Virus record (IMG/VR): IMGVR_UViG_3300042691_015076
Span: 1-33,378 of that record
Direction: 5' to 3' (one strand)
Length of the DNA: 33,378 bases
Source: a virus
Part shown: in pieces, positions 1,016-33,336 of the stretch
How positions within the stretch are numbered: the stretch's first letter is position 1
Layout: each line of letters begins with the position of its first letter
The notes under the pieces: model-generated
Told to the model about the DNA's origin: nothing
Databases searched by the model: none
What the model saw: the letters and a program-made list of their open reading frames with translations, nothing else
Position numbers and translations under genes: made by a program

Positions 1016-1408
1016 ATGTCAGTATTCCATGTTTATGAGATGAGCCCCGTAGATAACGGATGGTTTTTATTCAAAACCGTTGAAGAAGTGCTATCCGCTT
1101 TGTGTGAGGGACTAAAGCATCAGGCGGAAAATTGCATTACAACTGATACTGATATTTTTTGCTATGAATATCCCGATCCAGAGACATTTATAAAGCAATA
1201 CAATCAATCAAGAACGGCAGCACGAAAGGCTGGATGGGAAGGCGATATGCGCGAAGGCCCTGTCGTCGTTCCCGTTGTTCAGGACGCCGATTGTTGCTTT
1301 GGCTTTATGTGGAAGCAAGACAGCAACGGGACAACCTATGTCGTTATTCCTGTAAAAAACGACAGATTGTTAAAGGTCTCGTATTCTTATCAAGCTGTGA
1401 GATTATAA
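1016..1408 (+). CDS. Hypothetical protein, 130 aa
   Basis: Not recognised. A soluble acidic protein with several Cys and aromatic residues and no membrane segment or obvious motif. The start is supported by TAGGAGATAGAAATG, a close variant of the start module used by many genes on the opposite strand further right. It lies between the RuvC-like and primase-helicase genes, so a replication-associated role is possible but unsupported. The stop runs directly into an A-rich stretch followed by a hairpin. Confidence 0.7.
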   Translation: MSVFHVYEMSPVDNGWFLFKTVEEVLSALCEGLKHQAENCITTDTDIFCYEYPDPETFIKQYNQSRTAARKAGWEGDMREGPVVVPVVQDADCCFGFMWKQDSNGTTYVVIPVKNDRLLKVSYSYQAVRL

Positions 1409-1413
1409 AAAAA

Positions 1414-1433
1414 GAGCGGCCCCTTCGCCGCTC
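1414..1433. terminator. GC hairpin with A tract on its left side
   Basis: GAGCGGC (1414-1420) pairs with GCCGCTC (1427-1433) around a 6-base loop. Seven A residues precede it on the plus strand, so read on the minus strand it looks like an intrinsic terminator. On the plus strand no T tract follows, so it may only attenuate transcription or end stray minus-strand transcripts entering the replication operon. Confidence 0.5.
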
Positions 1434-1461
1434 CAGTCATTCAAGGGAGGAAAACGTCACA

Positions 1462-1500
1462 ATGACAGAGAGCCAAAGTAACAATGCGAATATCTCATAA
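1462..1500 (+). CDS. Possible 12-residue leader peptide
   Basis: ATG at 1462 opens a 12-codon frame (MTESQSNNANIS). GGGAGG lies 12 bases upstream, a strong but rather distant ribosome binding site. It sits in the gap between the hairpin at 1414-1433 and the primase-helicase gene. The strong binding site is the only argument for translation; there is no homology argument, and it could be chance. Confidence 0.25.
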   Translation: MTESQSNNANIS

Positions 1501-1539
1501 ATCATGACGTAAATCAATCGATATAGAAGGCCCCTCAAA

Positions 1540-6183: not shown

Positions 6184-6355
6184 TTGGATTTAGTCCTCTT
6201 GCTAGTATTGCGATGACAACGTCTTGCTCAGTCCATAATGCGCTGGGCTGTCCAATAATTCTGCCAGTCAATGCGCAGTATAAGTGCCACAGCGTCGGAT
6301 TAGCCTCGTAGCAAGGCTCAGTGGACGCAAGAATAAAGGGACGCGACTGATCCAT
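6026..6355 (-). CDS. Hypothetical protein overlapping the HTH gene
   Basis: Not recognised; 109 residues from the ATG at 6355, which has GGAGGTTGAT directly upstream. The first 60 residues look like a real folded segment (TLWHLYCALTG, then WTEQDVVIAILARG). The last 50 are Ser/Asn/Asp-rich and are read from the same DNA as the HTH gene in another frame. Either the two genes truly overlap by 158 bases, or a frameshift near 6180 has extended the first gene and the original ended there. The start module is convincing; the end is not. Confidence 0.5.
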   Translation of the reverse strand: MDQSRPFILASTEPCYEANPTLWHLYCALTGRIIGQPSALWTEQDVVIAILARGLNPNDARKNDSGNEQSGSVKSGYRFDIRRDISTGNVMAVREASSSNDAVVFVVGA

Positions 6356-6356
6356 A

Positions 6357-6593
6357 TCAACCTCCAAAGTAACCGTATTCGGGATGCATAACGACGAAGC
6401 CTTCGCCGACCATGTAACGCGCAAGATCGCGCGCAGGACGATGATCGGTGTAGAAGATCGTGCCCATCCACTGCCAATCTTCTATGCCAAGTTCGTTAAT
6501 AAAATCTAAAGCGGCTTCTGTTTTCGGTTCGAAGCCCCACATGGTGGCCCACTCGCCAGCGTGAACGATGAAGTCGGGGTTTGGGTTGGTCAT
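6357..6593 (-). CDS. Small acidic hypothetical protein, 78 aa
   Basis: Not recognised. A compact, Trp- and acid-rich protein (GEWATMWGFEPKTEAALDF, then EDWQWMGTIFYTDH) that looks folded, possibly alpha/beta. The start at 6593 follows ATGGAGATTGAT. Its last codons, GGA GGT TGA, are also the ribosome binding site and spacer of the next gene, so the two are tightly coupled. Confidence 0.68.
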   Translation of the reverse strand: MTNPNPDFIVHAGEWATMWGFEPKTEAALDFINELGIEDWQWMGTIFYTDHRPARDLARYMVGEGFVVMHPEYGYFGG

Positions 6594-6604
6594 ATCAATC
6601 TCCA

Positions 6605-6898
6605 TTACTTTGCGTGATGCTTGTAAGCTTCGATGTCTTTGGCTGCTTCAATAGCAGCCCACAGAGCAAGCTTTTTGGTTTTGAAGGGAACTCCACGGCA
6701 TCCCGTGTCACGATCATGCACGAACCATTTTGCGCCCTTGCAAGGATGCGTGATGATTGAAGCGCAGATCTTGCCGGCACCCGGCAGAACGGGATCGACA
6801 TAGACAGCGATTTCCGACCAATCGCGGCGCTTGTCTTCTTTCACCGTGATGAAAGCTTCCGGGTAAGAAACCTTGATGGTGTTGGCGTTGTCCTGCAT
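6605..6898 (-). CDS. Small hypothetical protein, 97 aa
   Basis: Not recognised. A mixed alpha/beta pattern: two strands (TIKVSYPEAFITV, SEIAVYVDPV), a central loop with two Cys, then a Lys/Ala-rich helix near the C-terminus (KLALWAAIEAAKDIEAY). Start at 6898 after ATGGAGATCGAT. The stop TAA overlaps the start module of the next gene (TAATGGAG). Confidence 0.68.
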   Translation of the reverse strand: MQDNANTIKVSYPEAFITVKEDKRRDWSEIAVYVDPVLPGAGKICASIITHPCKGAKWFVHDRDTGCRGVPFKTKKLALWAAIEAAKDIEAYKHHAK

Positions 6899-6909
6899 AT
6901 CGATCTCCA

Positions 6910-7065
6910 TTACTTGGCTTTGCGAAGAACATAAGTGTATTTGCCGTCAGCCCAGAGCTTTTGGTTGACGAGAACGTATCCACGGCCACGATATTCAGCC
7001 GCAACCTTGTTGCAGTATGAAACCGTTCCAGAAACGATCTTTTCGAAGTAGGGTTGATCGTTCAT
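6910..7065 (-). CDS. Small basic hypothetical protein, 51 aa
   Basis: Not recognised. The first gene after the promoter at 7095-7123. Basic, Tyr-rich and probably all beta (RGYVLVNQKLWADGKYTYVLRK). The start at 7065 follows ATGGAGATTGAG. A longer frame extends upstream to 7116 but would begin inside the promoter, so the shorter form is preferred. Confidence 0.65.
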   Translation of the reverse strand: MNDQPYFEKIVSGTVSYCNKVAAEYRGRGYVLVNQKLWADGKYTYVLRKAK

Positions 7066-7094
7066 CTCAATCTCCATCTCAATCAGTGATTCGT

Positions 7095-7123
7095 AAGGTA
7101 TGGGAAGTTTCTTCACATGTCAA
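7095..7123 (-). promoter_or_regulatory. Promoter P1 with embedded operator
   Basis: On the minus strand: -35 TTGACA, 17-base spacer, -10 TACCTT. The spacer holds TGAAG-AAA-CTTCC, a one-mismatch copy of the palindrome found whole in three other promoters. It drives the genes from 7065 down to 5720. About 30 bases from upstream of -35 through the operator are nearly identical to those of P2. Confidence 0.75.
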
Positions 7124-7140
7124 ATGGGGATTAATAAGAA

Positions 7141-7165
7141 AAAGGGCCCGAAGGCCCTTTTTTTT
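7141..7165. terminator. Bidirectional intrinsic terminator
   Basis: GGGCC-cgaa-GGCCC (7144-7157) is flanked by an A run and eight T residues. On the minus strand it ends the unit carrying the gene at 7164-7607, just before promoter P1 opens the next unit. Confidence 0.85.
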
Positions 7166-7607
7166 ACGCCGCAGCTTTGGGGCTCAGATTCCAGTGCTCG
7201 TCGGCCCTTTGTTTGGCTTCTTCGTCGCCATGCTCCATGACGAAGCTGACCAGAGAACCATTGAAGAACCGCTTCTTGCTGGTCTTGTCTGTCTCGCCAT
7301 CCCAGTCGACGTGATAGGCCTTGACCATCAAGCCGCCCAGCTTGTTCTGGTAGAGCTCATACACATACTCGAGGTCGCCGTGATGGTTGGGGCCCTTGGT
7401 GAAATAGACGTCGCCGCCTCCTTCGTGCTTGTTGCCGGCAATAAATGCAGCGGCAAAGTCGCAGGCCTCAAAGCGTGTGCCGCCCCATGCATAGGGGATG
7501 GCCTTCATGAAGAAGAGCGCAGCGCCTGACGGGTAGCCGTCCCAGTGCTTGTAAACGTGAAAGCGATCATCACCGTCGTTGAAGGTGTAAACAGCGCGAG
7601 TTCCCAT
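7164..7607 (-). CDS. Conserved phage/bacterial protein, 147 aa
   Basis: A family seen in phages and bacteria with no known function, recognised by the opening RAVYTFNDGDDRFHVYKHWDGYP and the following GAALFFMKAI helix. Residues about 50-100 continue with a GGGDVYFTKG turn and a LEYVYEL strand, giving an alpha/beta fold rich in aromatics. The start at 7607 has the ATGGAGATCGAT module; an open frame extends further upstream but runs into the previous gene. It is the second gene of the P2 unit and is followed by a canonical terminator. Confidence 0.75.
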   Translation of the reverse strand: MGTRAVYTFNDGDDRFHVYKHWDGYPSGAALFFMKAIPYAWGGTRFEACDFAAAFIAGNKHEGGGDVYFTKGPNHHGDLEYVYELYQNKLGGLMVKAYHVDWDGETDKTSKKRFFNGSLVSFVMEHGDEEAKQRADEHWNLSPKAAA

Positions 7608-7636
7608 ATCGATCTCCATAAGTTTGAGAGGAAGGT

Positions 7637-7654
7637 GAGGGGCCGTAGCCCCTC
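7637..7654. terminator. Intergenic hairpin
   Basis: GAGGGGC-cgta-GCCCCTC lies 3 bases beyond the stop of the gene at 7657-7989. No T tract follows, so it may partly terminate or protect the 3' end of the upstream mRNA. The same hairpin with changed outer pairs recurs at 8642-8661 and 9707-9720. Confidence 0.55.
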
Positions 7655-7656
7655 GA

Positions 7657-7989
7657 CTAGAAGTTATAATCGTAGAAGCGATACGGACCTTTGGGCGTTT
7701 CTTTAAACGTGCCGCTGGCCCAGCCTTTTTTGCCGAGGCGGATAGTCTTTTTGCGCATGGGGCATTTTCCGGCATAAAGCCACGTCTGTTCGTGCTGGTT
7801 GTCGCAATGACCGGAAAAGCCGCCAACGATGAAGTTCGGTTTAAATTCGGGATCCTTCTCGACCTCAACCGGAACGACGGTCAAGGTCATGCCAGAGGCG
7901 CTGGCGGCGACCACCACCCACGGATTGGCGTCGGACCAGCCGTTCTCGACAAAGTAGCGGCCTTCGGGAGCATTTTTTACGTTAGACAT
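7657..7989 (-). CDS. Hypothetical protein, 110 aa
   Basis: Not recognised. First gene after promoter P2. A basic, probably beta-rich protein with two Cys near the C-terminal third (HCDNQHEQTWLYAGKC) and a His between them, a spacing that could bind a metal. The end is aromatic (PYRFYDYNF). Start at 7989 after ATGGAGATTGAC. Confidence 0.68.
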   Translation of the reverse strand: MSNVKNAPEGRYFVENGWSDANPWVVVAASASGMTLTVVPVEVEKDPEFKPNFIVGGFSGHCDNQHEQTWLYAGKCPMRKKTIRLGKKGWASGTFKETPKGPYRFYDYNF

Positions 7990-8016
7990 GTCAATCTCCA
8001 TCAGTTGATGATTCGG

Positions 8017-8045
8017 ACTGTATATGAAGTTTCTTCACATGTCAA
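8017..8045 (-). promoter_or_regulatory. Promoter P2 with embedded operator
   Basis: On the minus strand: -35 TTGACA, 17-base spacer, -10 TACAGT. The spacer contains the perfect palindrome TGAAG-AAA-CTTCA (8025-8037). It starts the two-gene unit 7989-7164 and sits directly beyond the stop of the gene at 8057-8413. Confidence 0.78.
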
Positions 8046-8056
8046 ATGGAGATTAA

Positions 8057-8413
8057 TCAGCCGTCCCACGGCTCCTCGTTCCACTGAGGCAGATTGCAGA
8101 CAATGTCTTCGGACAGGATCTCGATGGCACGGGAGATCTTCTTGAACAGAGGATCCTGCGGGACATCACCCTCGCTGCACTGATAACGCAGGCAGTGAAG
8201 CGCCTTTACTGCGCCAATCGGCGACACAGGAAACTTGCTGCCTTTAAACACGACTTTCTCTTCCGGTTCTTCGTATCTCTGCGCAACAGCTCTTGCGTTA
8301 AGCTCGAGAAGCTTTTGCCCTAGCTCTTTATTGTATTCGAATGATAGCTTGGCGTAGCACAAGCCCATCAAGCAGCGGTGGATCGTGTTATTGTTGACGA
8401 TGAAAGCTGACAT
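8057..8413 (-). CDS. Helical hypothetical protein, 118 aa
   Basis: Not recognised. Predominantly helical, with a Cys- and Leu-rich first half (residues about 10-50), a KVVFKGSKFPVS strand pair, and a C-terminal helix SRAIEILSEDIV. Start at 8413 follows ATGGAGATTGAT; a longer frame upstream overlaps the previous gene and is not preferred. Last gene of the P3 unit, with promoter P2 directly after it. Confidence 0.68.
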   Translation of the reverse strand: MSAFIVNNNTIHRCLMGLCYAKLSFEYNKELGQKLLELNARAVAQRYEEPEEKVVFKGSKFPVSPIGAVKALHCLRYQCSEGDVPQDPLFKKISRAIEILSEDIVCNLPQWNEEPWDG

Positions 8414-8414
8414 A

Positions 8415-8624
8415 TCAATCTCCATACTGTTTGATGTATTCAAGTGCGCAGCGATATCCGAGCACCTTGTATATTTCATCGATCTTGTTTGCATGATGCT
8501 CGATGATGACAGCGTTCGGCCTGATCTGCATGTCTTGTCTAAAATAGCTGATCAGTTGCTTCAAAGAGCCATCACTTTCATTATGCAGAGGACTGTCGGG
8601 TATTGGCTTGATGATCTCGAGCAT
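8415..8624 (-). CDS. Small helical hypothetical protein, 69 aa
   Basis: Not recognised. Charged helices, ending YIKQYGD. Its final codons GGA GAT TGA are the ribosome binding site and spacer of the next gene, so translation is coupled. Start at 8624 after CCGGAGATTGAT. Confidence 0.65.
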   Translation of the reverse strand: MLEIIKPIPDSPLHNESDGSLKQLISYFRQDMQIRPNAVIIEHHANKIDEIYKVLGYRCALEYIKQYGD

Positions 8625-8641
8625 ATCAATCTCCGGTGTTA

Positions 8642-8661
8642 GATGGGGCCGTAGCCCCATC
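8642..8661. terminator. Intergenic hairpin
   Basis: GATGGGGC-cgta-GCCCCATC, an 8-pair stem, lies between the stop at 8664 and the start module of the gene at 8624. It shares loop and inner stem with the hairpins at 7637 and 9707 but lacks a T tract, so it probably attenuates or stabilises rather than fully ending transcription. Confidence 0.5.
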
Positions 8662-8663
8662 GT

Positions 8664-8951
8664 TTAAGCATATACTTTTACAATCTCATAATCTTTGATC
8701 GGATCGCTTGCGACGCCATTGTAAAATGGATGAAGAAAACCATCGTCATCTGTGACCCATTCTTCAATGCCGGTCGTGTCGAACACGACGACCTTGTATT
8801 CGACGCCTTTCTTGATTTTGAAGACGTGTTTAAAGTCGCGCTTGTATTGCTGAACAGCTTTCGTCGCTGCCTCTGTTTTTCCTTCGGCGCAATACCAAGA
8901 GCAAGTTCCGCCTGCGCGAACGAATGCTGTATATTTTTTATCTTCGCTCAT
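8664..8951 (-). CDS. Hypothetical protein, 95 aa
   Basis: Not recognised. An alpha/beta look: KYTAFVRAGG strand, an Ala/Lys-rich helix (KTEAATKAVQQYKRDF), paired strands (YKVVVFDTTG), then an acidic tail. Start at 8951 after GGGAGAGTGAT. The preceding gene's stop lies in that same stretch. Confidence 0.66.
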   Translation of the reverse strand: MSEDKKYTAFVRAGGTCSWYCAEGKTEAATKAVQQYKRDFKHVFKIKKGVEYKVVVFDTTGIEEWVTDDDGFLHPFYNGVASDPIKDYEIVKVYA

Positions 8952-8952
8952 A

Positions 8953-9183
8953 TCACTCTCCCAAAATCTTTTTGAGTTCAGCTTTAACAGCGCGAGCCTT
9001 CTCGCCGCGCCATGTATTGGCGTTGGCAAGAAAATAACGAACGACTGATTCGCCGCTATCATAGTAATAGTTGTCGTTGATTGAATTAAGCTCGCACATT
9101 GCATCGAGATACGGCACAGCGCCAAAGTAAGGCTTCTTCCAATCAGCGCGGATCTCGCGAGCGATAACAGCAATAGAGCGCAT
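8953..9183 (-). CDS. Hypothetical protein, 76 aa
   Basis: Not recognised. Helical, Arg-rich at the start (RSIAVIAREIRADW), with a Tyr triplet near the middle and a basic C-terminal helix. Start at 9183 after AGGAGAATTGAT. It lies immediately downstream of a hammerhead ribozyme, so ribozyme cleavage would give its mRNA a fresh 5' end about 40 bases before this start. Confidence 0.66.
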   Translation of the reverse strand: MRSIAVIAREIRADWKKPYFGAVPYLDAMCELNSINDNYYYDSGESVVRYFLANANTWRGEKARAVKAELKKILGE

Positions 9184-9196
9184 ATCAATTCTCCTT

Positions 9197-9248
9197 GGTC
9201 TCATCAGTGACGGCCTGACCGTCAGACGCTCCGAAGAGCGTTTCGACC
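9197..9248 (-). ncRNA. Type II hammerhead ribozyme (copy A)
   Basis: A self-cleaving RNA read on the minus strand. In order: GGTC (stem II, 9248-9245), GAAA (9244-9241), CGCTC-ttcg-GAGCG (stem III, closed by a UUCG loop), TC completing the GUC cleavage triplet (cut after 9225), TGACGG-loop-CCGTCA (stem I, 9224-9208), CTGATGA (9207-9201), and GACC (9200-9197) closing stem II. All core bases of the family are present, including the A15.1-U16.1 and G10.1-C11.1 pairs. Stem II is open to the flanks, which defines type II. It lies between the genes at 9251-9403 and 8953-9183 and should cut their shared mRNA. Confidence 0.9.
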
Positions 9249-9250
9249 TA

Positions 9251-9403
9251 TTAGGGCAAATAGACGTTGTTGCCCTTGATCGTGCAGCCGGGAAAGTAAG
9301 CCTTCACCTCCTGCGTATGAAACGAATATGTGCCGAGGTTCTCGCCATCGAACGCATAGATGTTCCACACTTTGATCTTCGAGTTTTTGCGAACCTTGAT
9401 CAT
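9251..9403 (-). CDS. 50-residue gene flanked by two ribozymes
   Basis: Not recognised. A small basic protein (MIKVRKNSKIKVWNIYAF...) that looks like an antiparallel beta sheet with one Cys. Start at 9403 follows ATGGAGATTGAT; the stop ends 2 bases before ribozyme copy A begins. Copy B lies 13 bases upstream of its start. It is thus the sole gene on the 220-base RNA the two ribozymes would release. The sequence alone gives no function. Confidence 0.68.
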   Translation of the reverse strand: MIKVRKNSKIKVWNIYAFDGENLGTYSFHTQEVKAYFPGCTIKGNNVYLP

Positions 9404-9416
9404 ATCAATCTCCATC

Positions 9417-9468
9417 GGTCTCATCAGTGCCCGCATCACGGACAGACGGGCCTTAGCCCGTTTCGACC
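9417..9468 (-). ncRNA. Type II hammerhead ribozyme (copy B)
   Basis: Same architecture as the copy at 9197-9248, same length and no gaps: GGTC (9468-9465), GAAA, CGGGC-taag-GCCCG (stem III), the GUC triplet with cleavage after 9445, a 6-pair stem I (TGTCCG/CGGGCA) around a 5-base loop, CTGATGA (9427-9421) and GACC (9420-9417). Stems I and III differ from the other copy by paired changes that keep base pairing, which is strong evidence that the RNA structure is under selection. It lies between the genes at 9469-9639 and 9251-9403. Confidence 0.9.
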
Positions 9469-9639
9469 TTATTGCTCGTAATAGCCGTCTTTGCACCAGA
9501 AGGTGGAGCCCCAATCAATGAGATTGCCTTCTCCCCAGACACCAACCTTCTGCCAATGGATCAGCCATTTCCAAGTGTAGTAATCAAAAACATGGGAGCC
9601 GCCCGTCTGCTCGTAATCGGCGTGATGCGTATTGGACAT
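9469..9639 (-). CDS. Trp-rich hypothetical protein, 56 aa
   Basis: Not recognised. First gene of the P3 unit. Strikingly rich in Trp and Tyr (YYTWKWLIHWQKVGVWGEG), soluble and probably a small beta domain. Start at 9639 after ATGGAGATCGAT. Hammerhead copy B begins directly at its stop, so cleavage would free this gene's mRNA with a structured 3' end. Confidence 0.66.
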   Translation of the reverse strand: MSNTHHADYEQTGGSHVFDYYTWKWLIHWQKVGVWGEGNLIDWGSTFWCKDGYYEQ

Positions 9640-9664
9640 ATCGATCTCCATCAGTTGATGATTT

Positions 9665-9694
9665 TTTATAGCATGAAGTTTCTTCATACGTCAA
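9665..9694 (-). promoter_or_regulatory. Promoter P3 with embedded operator
   Basis: On the minus strand: -35 TTGACG, 18-base spacer, -10 TATAAA. The perfect palindrome TGAAG-AAA-CTTCA occupies 9674-9686 between them. It drives the six-gene unit 9639-8057 that contains both ribozymes. The sequence just upstream of -35 resembles that of P4. Confidence 0.78.
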
Positions 9695-9706
9695 GCGGAA
9701 AAGAAA

Positions 9707-9727
9707 GGGGCCGTAGCCCCTTTTTTT
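9707..9727. terminator. Intrinsic terminator
   Basis: GGGGC-cgta-GCCCC followed by seven T residues on the plus strand; on the minus strand it is followed by TTTCTTTT. It ends the single-gene unit 10028-9726 just before promoter P3. Confidence 0.8.
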
Positions 9728-10063: not shown

Positions 10064-10092
10064 ACCATATATGAAGTTTCTTCACTCTACAA
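10064..10092 (-). promoter_or_regulatory. Promoter P4 with embedded operator
   Basis: On the minus strand: -35 TTGTAG, 17-base spacer, -10 TATGGT, with the perfect palindrome TGAAG-AAA-CTTCA at 10072-10084. It drives 10028-9726 and faces away from the plus-strand late region that begins at 10106. Confidence 0.72.
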
Positions 10093-10105
10093 GCGGAAAA
10101 TTGAC

Positions 10106-28700: not shown

Positions 28701-29458
28701 GGCCGCATGGCCGCGCCAGAGTAAGCGCGCGCAATCCGCAGGCGTTTGGTATCTGCGATAGATGCGGGATCCTCTATAACCACAATCAGCTTCAATGGCA
28801 GTTTGATTGGGCTGGCGCTTCTCTGATTAATAAGCGCATTCTTGTTTGTGACACATGCAATGATGTGCCACAAAATCAGTTGCGCGCCATCGTGTTACCG
28901 GCGGACCCGACGCCGATTTTGAACCCGCGCGTTCAAGATTATGGGACGGCTGAGACTGATTATAGGATCACTCAAGGAAATACGACAAATACTCAAACAG
29001 GCATTCCTGTTCCGGGTGGAGATCCTCGAGTTACTCAATCCGATGACAATCGCGTAACGCAGGAAATTGGCGGCACTCGTTATGACCTTAACGAGCAGCC
29101 GGGTCTTGATCAAAATGCCGTAATGCCGTTGCAGACAAATGAAACAACCGTTTCTGCGTATTATGTTTCAATTCCGCTGACGTCTGTTGCTTCTAATGGC
29201 GCTGGCCTTGCAACAATTACATGCCCATCTGCGCATGGTCTTTCGACAGGTGATCAGATTACGGTCGAAGGACTATCGGAAGCAACTGCAAACGGCTTCT
29301 ATACTATCACTGTTACGACAGCCACGGCTTTCACATATCAGCTTAATCCTGTATTATCGGCTGGTTCTTTGCTGACAAGCACGACGAAAATGGTTACGTC
29401 GAATGCTGGTCTGCCTTATAACTTTAACCAAGTTCCGCAGACGGGGCCGCTACGTTGA
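28697..29458 (+). CDS. Zn-ribbon-containing structural protein
   Basis: The N-terminal 70 residues carry ICDRCG and VCDTCN, two CxxC pairs about 31 residues apart around a strand-rich loop (LQWQFDWAG), a zinc-ribbon layout. The remainder is beta-rich, with an ITCPSAHGLSTGDQITVEG segment seen in phage tail and fibre proteins. The ATG at 28697 overlaps the previous stop, and a TTG at 28691 is an alternative. Located between the adaptor and HNH/fibre genes, it is likely a tail component; function is inferred from place. Confidence 0.65.
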   Translation: MRPHGRARVSARNPQAFGICDRCGILYNHNQLQWQFDWAGASLINKRILVCDTCNDVPQNQLRAIVLPADPTPILNPRVQDYGTAETDYRITQGNTTNTQTGIPVPGGDPRVTQSDDNRVTQEIGGTRYDLNEQPGLDQNAVMPLQTNETTVSAYYVSIPLTSVASNGAGLATITCPSAHGLSTGDQITVEGLSEATANGFYTITVTTATAFTYQLNPVLSAGSLLTSTTKMVTSNAGLPYNFNQVPQTGPLR

Positions 29459-30015
29459 TTGTTTGTCGTATATGCAATGAAGAAAAAGATGAAAGCTCTT
29501 TCTATTTAAGGAAAGAGACTGGCAAATATCGTTCAGAATGCAAACAATGCCACGGAATTAGAGCATCAGCTTGGCAGAATAAAAATAGAAACAAGGTTCG
29601 CGGATATGTTCGCAAATCTTGCAAAAAGGCTTATGACGCCAACCCGGAAAAATATAAGGAAAAATCCCGCAATAAAAGAATGGCAAATCCTGAAAGAGCT
29701 AGAGAAATAGTCAACAAAAGTTTTAAAAAGAAATATTATTCAATGCATACCACAGAGAGGGCCCGCCTTAATCAATTAAACGCCAGCAGAAGATCGGCGA
29801 CACCTAAATGGTTATCTGCTATACATAGGGCTCAAATAATGGAGTTTTATGATCTAGCGAGAGCAAAAACGATGCAGACTGGCGTCATGTATCATGTGGA
29901 TCATATAATTCCTGTTAATGGCAAAAACGTCAGCGGTCTTCATGTGCCGTGGAATTTGCAACTTTTAACTCAGGCAGAGAATTGCGCTAAGAAAAATAGC
30001 GTTTGGGAGATCTGA
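29455..30015 (+). CDS. HNH endonuclease (probable homing type)
   Basis: A 186-residue HNH nuclease. N-terminal CRICNEEK...CKQCHG gives a CxxC/CxxC zinc knuckle; the middle is Lys/Arg/Asn-rich; the catalytic part is [11 protein letters not shown] (DH pair) followed by [20 protein letters not shown]. It starts with TTG overlapping the previous stop, and is clearly more A+T-rich than its neighbours, as expected of an inserted free-standing homing endonuclease. It lies between two structural genes. Confidence 0.85.
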
Positions 30016-30017
30016 TC

Positions 30018-32069
<2,052 letters not shown>

Positions 32070-32688: not shown

Positions 32689-32861
32689 TGACGCTGGCTG
32701 AAAAAATAGCCGTGATTTACCCAGCGCTTGCTGACGTAAAATTGTCCGATAACGGGATAATTCTTCAAAACGACAGCGATGGACGCGGCGACTACATCGC
32801 GTTTTGGCGTCATCCAGAATATCCAGAGCCTACGCAGGAGCAGCTTGATGCCATCCAATGA
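32688..32861 (+). CDS. XkdW-like small tail protein, 57 aa
   Basis: Matches the XkdW family of small tail-associated proteins (MTLAEKIAVIYPALAD, then YIAFWRHPEYPEPTQEQLDA). Its ATG overlaps the fibre stop by one base (TAATG). The reading frame is closed by TGA overlapping the start of the HNH gene. A similar C-terminal sequence reappears after the HNH gene. Confidence 0.72.
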   Translation: MTLAEKIAVIYPALADVKLSDNGIILQNDSDGRGDYIAFWRHPEYPEPTQEQLDAIQ

Positions 32862-33336
32862 GATGACAAAAGAATACGCCTGTGCGCTGTTTGACTACAG
32901 TGATGGCAAGCTGTTCTGGAAAGTCAATCTGACGACTAGAAACTATATTGGGCGCGAGGCTGGATCGCCAGCGCACGGTTATAAGACTGTAATGGTGAAC
33001 GGAAGAAACTGGCGGATACACCGCCTAGTCTATCTGATGCACTACGGCTATCTGCCTGATGTTATAGATCACATCAATGGCGATAGAAGCGACAATAGAA
33101 TTGAAAATCTTCGTGACGCCGGAACAGTCGGAAATGCCCGGAATGCCCGGATGCGCTCAAATAACCGAACAGGCGTCAAAGGCGTTTCGTGGGACAAGAA
33201 CCGGGATAAATGGGTTGTCCGCGTGAAGGCAAACGGCAGGATCAATCAGAAATACGTATCTGACTTTAACACGGCTGCAAAAGTCGCAGCCGGAATGAGA
33301 CAGGCGCTTCATGGAGAATATGCCAATCATGGTTGA
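32848..33336 (+). CDS. HNH endonuclease with AP2-like C-terminal domain
   Basis: A 162-residue homing-type nuclease. VIDHINGDRSDNRIENL (about residues 70-87) supplies the HNH core; NRTGVKGVSWDKNRDKWVVRV (about 109-130) is the AP2-like DNA-binding domain common in such phage enzymes. Start at 32848 has GGAG 8 bases upstream and overlaps the XkdW-like gene by 14 bases. The short ORF after it carries a similar C-terminal XkdW-like sequence, so it may have inserted near a duplicated tail gene. Confidence 0.85.
   Translation: MPSNEMTKEYACALFDYSDGKLFWKVNLTTRNYIGREAGSPAHGYKTVMVNGRNWRIHRLVYLMHYGYLPDVIDHINGDRSDNRIENLRDAGTVGNARNARMRSNNRTGVKGVSWDKNRDKWVVRVKANGRINQKYVSDFNTAAKVAAGMRQALHGEYANHG

Follow-up and report, generated by a model that had tools for sequence, protein, structure and literature searches.

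What are the two RNA elements that separate three small genes on the minus strand of this phage genome, and what might they do to the message in which they would be made? The window (the whole stretch of DNA analysed here) is a virus record of 33,378 bases, and at 33 kb may be incomplete. Its terminase is nearest to that of a Manatee Spring phage genome (62%). Next come Paracoccus, Aeromonas and Roseobacter phages, and a Rhizobium phage gives a partial match; because of these nearest matches, the host is likely to be alphaproteobacterial.

A pair of type II hammerheads and their operon

Type II hammerhead ribozymes combine a core of CUGANGA, GAAA and an NUH triplet with stems I and III that are closed by loops and a stem II that is open. 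Using a core pattern, folding and covariance models, we find this arrangement twice on the minus strand, at 9417..9468 (ribozyme 1) and 9197..9248 (ribozyme 2), with CUGAUGA, GAAA and GUC all correctly placed, and with stems I and III closed and stem II open in both. The shared 52-nt layout reads GGUC GAA, a 16-nt stem III, C, the cut, a 17-nt stem-loop I, CUGAUGA and GACC, such that GGUC/GACC forms stem II and stem III has 6 bp. In ribozyme 1, stem II joins 9468-9465 to 9420-9417, and between the two strands lie GAA (9464-9462), stem III (9461-9446), the cleavage C (9445), stem-loop I (9444-9428, loop UGAUG) and CUGAUGA (9427-9421). In ribozyme 2 the equivalent parts are stem II (9248-9245/9200-9197), stem III (9241-9226, with a UUCG loop), the cleavage C (9225), stem-loop I (9224-9208, loop UCAGG) and CUGAUGA (9207-9201). 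The predicted cuts fall at 9445|9444 and 9225|9224.

The core pattern GTCGAAAC-N-GTC-N-CTGATGAGAC is found nowhere else in the window and gave no match in 100 shuffles, which rules out a chance origin; a hammerhead finder recovers both copies and returned no match in a control of 346 kb of reversed sequence. For both ribozymes, the three-way junction is the minimum-energy as well as the centroid fold, with folding z-scores of -3.0 and -1.5 for the bare 52-mers. Compensatory changes are seen in all three stems of the wider subclass described below, and also between relatives of the window. By core sequence, fold, covariation and homology, then, these elements are type II hammerheads, and we would expect both to be self-cleaving. 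The first-pass annotation had placed them at 9248-9197 and 9468-9417, which proves exact to the base; it was also right that the copies align without gaps at equal length (both 52 nt), that stems I and III differ between them with pairing kept, as they do between related phages, and that the predicted cleavage sites follow 9445 and 9225.

Its expectation of clean hits to the type II model was borne out in extent and not in score: both copies match Rfam RF02276 (Hammerhead_II) over its full length, at 33.5 and 29.6 bits (E of 0.003 and 0.032 for the window), and so fall below the curated gathering cut-off of 37 bits, which is a listing threshold and not a feature of ribozymes. They do so because they lack the pairing between loop I and tail that the Rfam consensus appears to reflect. 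Copies in most of the records tested likewise score under the cut-off, and of four relatives' records only one (L144) has a copy above it, at 37.7 bits. As a first covariance model (R1) had included the window copies, a second (R2) drew on 49 hammerheads of other contigs and excluded the window and its relatives; it scores the two ribozymes at 71.4 and 73.1 bits, with E about 1e-18. Run over the window with filters off, model R1 found no further hammerheads, the next best match reaching 9.5 bits as against 72-74 for the pair.

A minus-strand cluster of small genes contains both ribozymes, in sense orientation, within a unit that runs from a promoter-like element through gene A, ribozyme 1, gene B and ribozyme 2 to gene C. 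The probable promoter, TTGACG-18-TATAAA at 9665..9694 (-), is a member of repeat family D4 that falls under the threshold of the automatic scan, and carries the inverted repeat ATGAAG-AAA-CTTCAT between its hexamers. Gene A (9469..9639 (-), MSNTHHADYEQ...), without a family match, ends in a UAA stop directly 5' of ribozyme 1. Gene B (9251..9403 (-), 50 aa, MIKVRKNSK...) lies between the ribozymes and stops 2 nt 5' of ribozyme 2; it, too, has no family match, and homologues were found only in L294 and L168 among the loci compared. Gene C (8953..9183 (-), 76 aa, MRSIAVIAREIRADWK...), whose start codon is 13 nt 3' of ribozyme 2, belongs to PHROG 13953, a family without known function. It does not attract hammerheads per se, for besides L294 only two of 65 other gene C loci (L316 and L358) have one. 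Each ribozyme is followed by a short leader, GATGGAGATTGAT or AAGGAGAATTGAT, of a kind in use throughout the cluster; the gene B leader, GATGGAGATTGAT at 9404..9416 (-), lies directly 3' of ribozyme 1 and resembles those before some ten genes of the window. Both ribozymes are thereby placed between a stop codon and the stereotyped leader ATGGAGATTGATATG.

This leader sits 13-14 nt before the start codon, would read MEIDM if translation started early, and accompanies about ten minus-strand genes in 6347-9659, with further occurrences on the plus strand at 79 and 4487. A promoter-like repeat, TTGACATGTGAAGAAACTTCATATA, is present in four minus-strand copies (7102-7131, 8024-8053, 9673-9702 and 10071-10100), each with an inverted repeat between its -35 and -10 hexamers; these are probably co-regulated phage promoters. 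The ORF at 6183-5959 (-) codes for a small helix-turn-helix protein.

Relatives and a recurrent loop subclass

Both ribozymes are present in three related contigs (L294, L168 and L144) and one of them in two more (L182 and L190). Across most of the stretch shared with L294, DNA identity is about 84-96%. In the window copies and those of related phages alike, the core bases are intact while stems and loops diverge: stem III appears as GGGC-UAAG-GCCC and as variants resembling GGGGC-UCCG-GCCCC and GGGGC-GAAA-GCCCC, and stem II as AGUC/GACU in L168, all with pairing kept, and loop I as UGAUG, UCAAG, UCAGG, UAAAG or UAAGG across the window and its relatives.

The surrounding genes have been less constant. 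In L294, L168 and L144, a homologue of window gene Z (10028-9726) adjoins ribozyme 1; the window has an additional unit at this point, absent from all three and consisting of a terminator, a promoter and gene A, and here the gene A stop codon in turn adjoins ribozyme 1. In L168, ribozyme 2 is followed not by gene C but by a protein that, on reading the sequences, resembles the product of the window ORF at 7606, and L144 has different genes between its two ribozymes. In these loci the ribozymes keep their boundary position while neighbouring genes are exchanged, as Perreault et al. observed more generally of gene exchange around fixed hammerheads (PMC3088659). L144 also has a weak third match to the pentaloop model (1487-1537 (-), 18.8 bits), perhaps a decayed hammerhead. 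The subclass gave no hit in the parts covered of four annotated phage records with proteins in common with those of the window (MW202675, Rhizobium phage RHph_X3_2, DSL-LC05 and Iwokeuplikedis).

A wider view comes from three scans of a viral collection. The first, made with the core pattern and free lengths, returned at least 120 stretches, with counts to be taken as samples and the listed loci as a subset. Among the matches listed, 29 of the 30 ribozymes with a GGUC/GACC stem II have a stem-loop I of 17 nt, and 60 of the 65 with a 3-bp stem II have one of 20-24 nt, mostly with pairing of at least four bases between loop I and tail. With 17 nt fixed and the loop free, at least 124 distinct ribozymes were recovered, carrying UNANG (76), UNNNU (24) or other loops (24), and an A stands immediately 5' of stem II in 123 of the 124 among the matches listed. 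Their 3' tails begin AUCA in 14 of 24 UNNNU ribozymes versus 2 of 76 with UNANG loops (Fisher p = 4e-9, for sequences that are not fully independent); there is a hint here, at the level of sequence, that the UNNNU loop and tail touch. Finally, when the UNANG loop was held constant and stem II constrained only in its first pair, stem II has exactly 4 bp in 90 of 94 matches listed, in 17 different sequences overall, with A directly 5' in 90 of 90 of those listed. Across 71 aligned members of the subclass, both sides have changed in 13 of 16 pairs, and sliding the pairing partner by 1-3 columns lowers the covariation score from 0.84 to about 0.1; these members were selected with pairing as a criterion, such that their 100% pairing is partly by construction, which is not true of the covariation or of the architectural rule.

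Both window copies show a 4-bp stem II with A directly 5', a 6-bp stem I and a 5-nt UNANG loop, and neither UGAUG nor UCAGG has a partner of at least four bases in its tail (GAUGGAG and AAGGAG, respectively). Judged by these sequence characters, the pair belongs to a recurrent loop subclass with a 4-bp stem II, an A 5' to it, a 6-bp stem I and, mostly, a UNANG loop. In the accessible literature, which included the main text of PMC3088659, we found no description of a UNANG pentaloop class.

The prophage type II hammerheads described in 2011 share with the window pair the open stem II permutation and the core (PMC3088659; RF02276), a position just upstream of genes, and a tendency for several copies per operon to flank single small genes whose identities are not constant (PMC3088659). 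The published consensus has a loop I-3' tail pseudoknot where the window copies have a 4-bp stem II, a 6-bp stem I and a UNANG pentaloop; that pseudoknot was itself regarded as common and not universal, many hammerheads being without it and other contacts possibly existing (PMC3088659), and the pentaloop subclass would be a predicted answer to this remark. The pseudoknot aids fast cleavage in related ribozymes and is absent here, such that cleavage of the window copies at cellular Mg2+ may not be fast. A model of the subclass would bring in phage ribozymes that are passed over at the current Rfam threshold.

A close parallel is the Agrobacterium tumefaciens triple hammerhead around ardA, likewise tandem and in an alphaproteobacterial prophage context, which cuts a polycistronic RNA into single-gene pieces (PMC3088659), as we would infer for the window; it differs in that the window has no ardA, its ribozyme-adjacent genes being without known function. 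Cleavage of clustered prophage hammerheads has been shown in vitro and, for the Agrobacterium set, also in vivo in E. coli (PMC3088659). In haloviruses HF1/HF2, the HHphage hammerhead also lies 13 nt upstream of a start codon (PMC3088659), with an altered, salt-dependent core, whereas that of the window is canonical. The suggestion in the first-pass annotation that a pair in one phage operon is notable does not, therefore, stand: tandem type II hammerheads flanking single prophage genes have been known since 2011 (PMC3088659), other phages have up to ten, and contigs with 2 to 10 copies are common in the viral collection among the matches listed. The pair by itself adds one clean case to an arrangement already known, and the value of the finding lies in the subclass rule and in the stop-codon anchoring set out below, both of which come from comparison rather than from the window alone. 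Long runs, with 8 to 10 hammerheads within a single phage, occur in L215 (a 67.6-kb contig) and L151 (43.5 kb), and in L215 stem II is nearly constant within the contig while stems I and III are variable.

Stop-codon placement and a proposed model for message processing

The placement of ribozymes 1 and 2, starting directly after the gene A stop codon and 2 nt after that of gene B, is the rule among their kind. Flanking sequence was sufficient for 381 sampled hammerheads, and 302 of them (79%) start -3 to +6 nt from the stop codon of the upstream ORF, compared with 4% at positions shifted by 60-1000 nt and 8% at intergenic positions, for mechanically called ORFs of at least 40 codons and related contigs that are not independent. 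With ORFs of at least 60 codons, the pattern is seen in 278 of 383 cases in sense and in 16 of 383 in the antisense mirror. The commonest offsets are -1, 0 and +2 nt, consistent with the A on the 5' side of stem II lying in, or near, the stop codon; the next start codon follows a median of 22-24 nt downstream of the hammerhead. Both architectures, pentaloop and pseudoknotted, are anchored in this way. Chance is an implausible cause because the effect is large, despite mechanical ORF calls and contig kinship. The main text of PMC3088659 makes no mention of stop codons.

Drawing these observations together, we propose that the elements are catalytic type II hammerheads of the pentaloop subclass that process one polycistronic phage transcript, a reading in which we have considerable confidence. 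RNA polymerase would start at about 9660 and transcribe gene A, ribozyme 1, gene B, ribozyme 2 and gene C, with each ribozyme folding once synthesised and cutting after its GUC. With the ribozyme starting at the stop codon, the upstream message would end 24-27 nt past that codon, in the stem III hairpin and a 2',3'-cyclic phosphate; because stem I follows the cut, the downstream message would carry its 5'-OH on the stem I hairpin itself, and its own ribosome-binding leader would come next. The operon RNA A-B-C would in this way be converted to single-gene messages with hairpin-capped ends, such that decay and translation of neighbouring genes could be uncoupled, no terminator and promoter being needed at each boundary. 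Cleavage in these two copies, the capping role and any effect on expression or on the fate of the mRNAs are predictions of this model.

Hairpins at other boundaries of the cluster are relevant to this proposal. Plain GGGGCUACGGCCCC hairpins lie 3-7 nt past the stop codon at three of them and match stem III of ribozyme 1 in L294 and L168 at 13 of 14 bases, suggesting selection for hairpin-ended messages. After gene Z, the terminator hairpin GGGGCTACGGCCCC with its T tract (9707..9720 (-)) has 13 of 14 bases in common with stem III of ribozyme 1 in L294 and L168. Two further GGGGCTACGGCCCC hairpins, without a T tract, occur a few nt past stop codons at 8658-8645 and 7652-7639 (-), identical to the terminator hairpin at 9720 and near-identical to the relatives' stem III.

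A ribosome in the act of terminating occupies about a dozen nt on the 3' side of the stop codon. With ribozymes starting 0-2 nt from the window's stop codons, and within -3 to +6 nt in 79% of the wider sample, this footprint would cover the 5' strand of stem II and the GAAA, and the elements might accordingly act as translation-gated switches, which fold, and so cut, only while no ribosome is finishing the upstream gene. We think this unlikely, as the same placement would be expected if the sole aim were a short, hairpin-ended 3' UTR, and released ribosomes would free the ribozyme within seconds.

Considerably less probable, in our view, is that the 220-nt piece 9444-9225, which carries gene B, is re-ligated into an RNA circle by the reverse hammerhead reaction or by an RtcB-type ligase. 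The excised piece would have 5'-OH and 2',3'-cyclic phosphate ends, and GACC in its 5' part pairs with GGUC in its 3' part in the minimum-energy fold of the 220-mer, but that fold makes up 0.4% of the ensemble and the pairing is absent from the centroid; moreover, Perreault et al. sought circular or spliced products and found none (PMC3088659). We also considered stem II cross-pairing between neighbouring ribozymes as a general sign of circles: the halves are compatible in 30 of 52 informative neighbour pairs across phages, against 31% at random, an excess that shared ancestry can explain, and in 22 of 52 they do not fully match, so that cross-pairing is not required. Least credible of all is that the elements are decayed, non-catalytic relics or plain hairpins protecting RNA ends, as the sub-threshold Rfam scores and the plain hairpins at equivalent positions on other boundaries might suggest, for both copies and those of related phages keep every core base even as their stems and loops diverge, and a mere hairpin role would not preserve GAAA, CUGAUGA, GUC and stem II.

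Within the processing model that we favour, cutting could, by analogy, destabilise the downstream message rather than insulate it, because RNase J1 is known to enter at the 5'-OH end that glmS ribozyme cleavage creates (PMC3997798). Like the predicted cuts of the window, glmS self-cleavage in an mRNA leader leaves a 5'-OH downstream message; the glmS ribozyme differs in its fold, in its dependence on a metabolite and in its position in a 5' UTR rather than between genes, and its cutting triggers decay. Stem-loops at the 5' end protect mRNA in E. coli, where RNase E favours ends with a 5'-monophosphate (PMC3997798 and works cited there).

The reason for the association of hammerheads with genes was described as unknown in 2023 (PMC10085705), and stop-codon anchoring gives the question of their purpose in bacteria and phages a concrete, testable form. 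Putting the comparisons together, we tentatively entertain a joint reading, to which we would give slightly less than even weight: that phages have at least two type II architectures, differing in how stem I docks on stem II, of which the UNANG version docks its pentaloop, on a fixed 6-bp stem I, against a fixed 4-bp stem II with an invariant A above it, doing without the pseudoknot and mostly escaping detection at the Rfam cut-off, and that the stop-codon anchoring of both points to a general device for making message ends, a self-acting substitute for terminator and promoter.

Other features of the window

At 1399-1473 (-), there is a full-length, sub-threshold match to RF00519 (the alphaproteobacterial suhB/mmgR sRNA), scoring 25.3 bits where the cut-off is 41 and including a CUCCCU motif and a terminator-like hairpin followed by a U run; this is possibly a phage-borne relative of a host sRNA. 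The 688-aa protein encoded at 30003-32069 (+), with long collagen-like G-P-T-G repeats, is probably a tail fibre, and beside the tail genes two proteins that read as HNH-type homing endonuclease-like are encoded at 29455-30015 and 32779-33336 (+).
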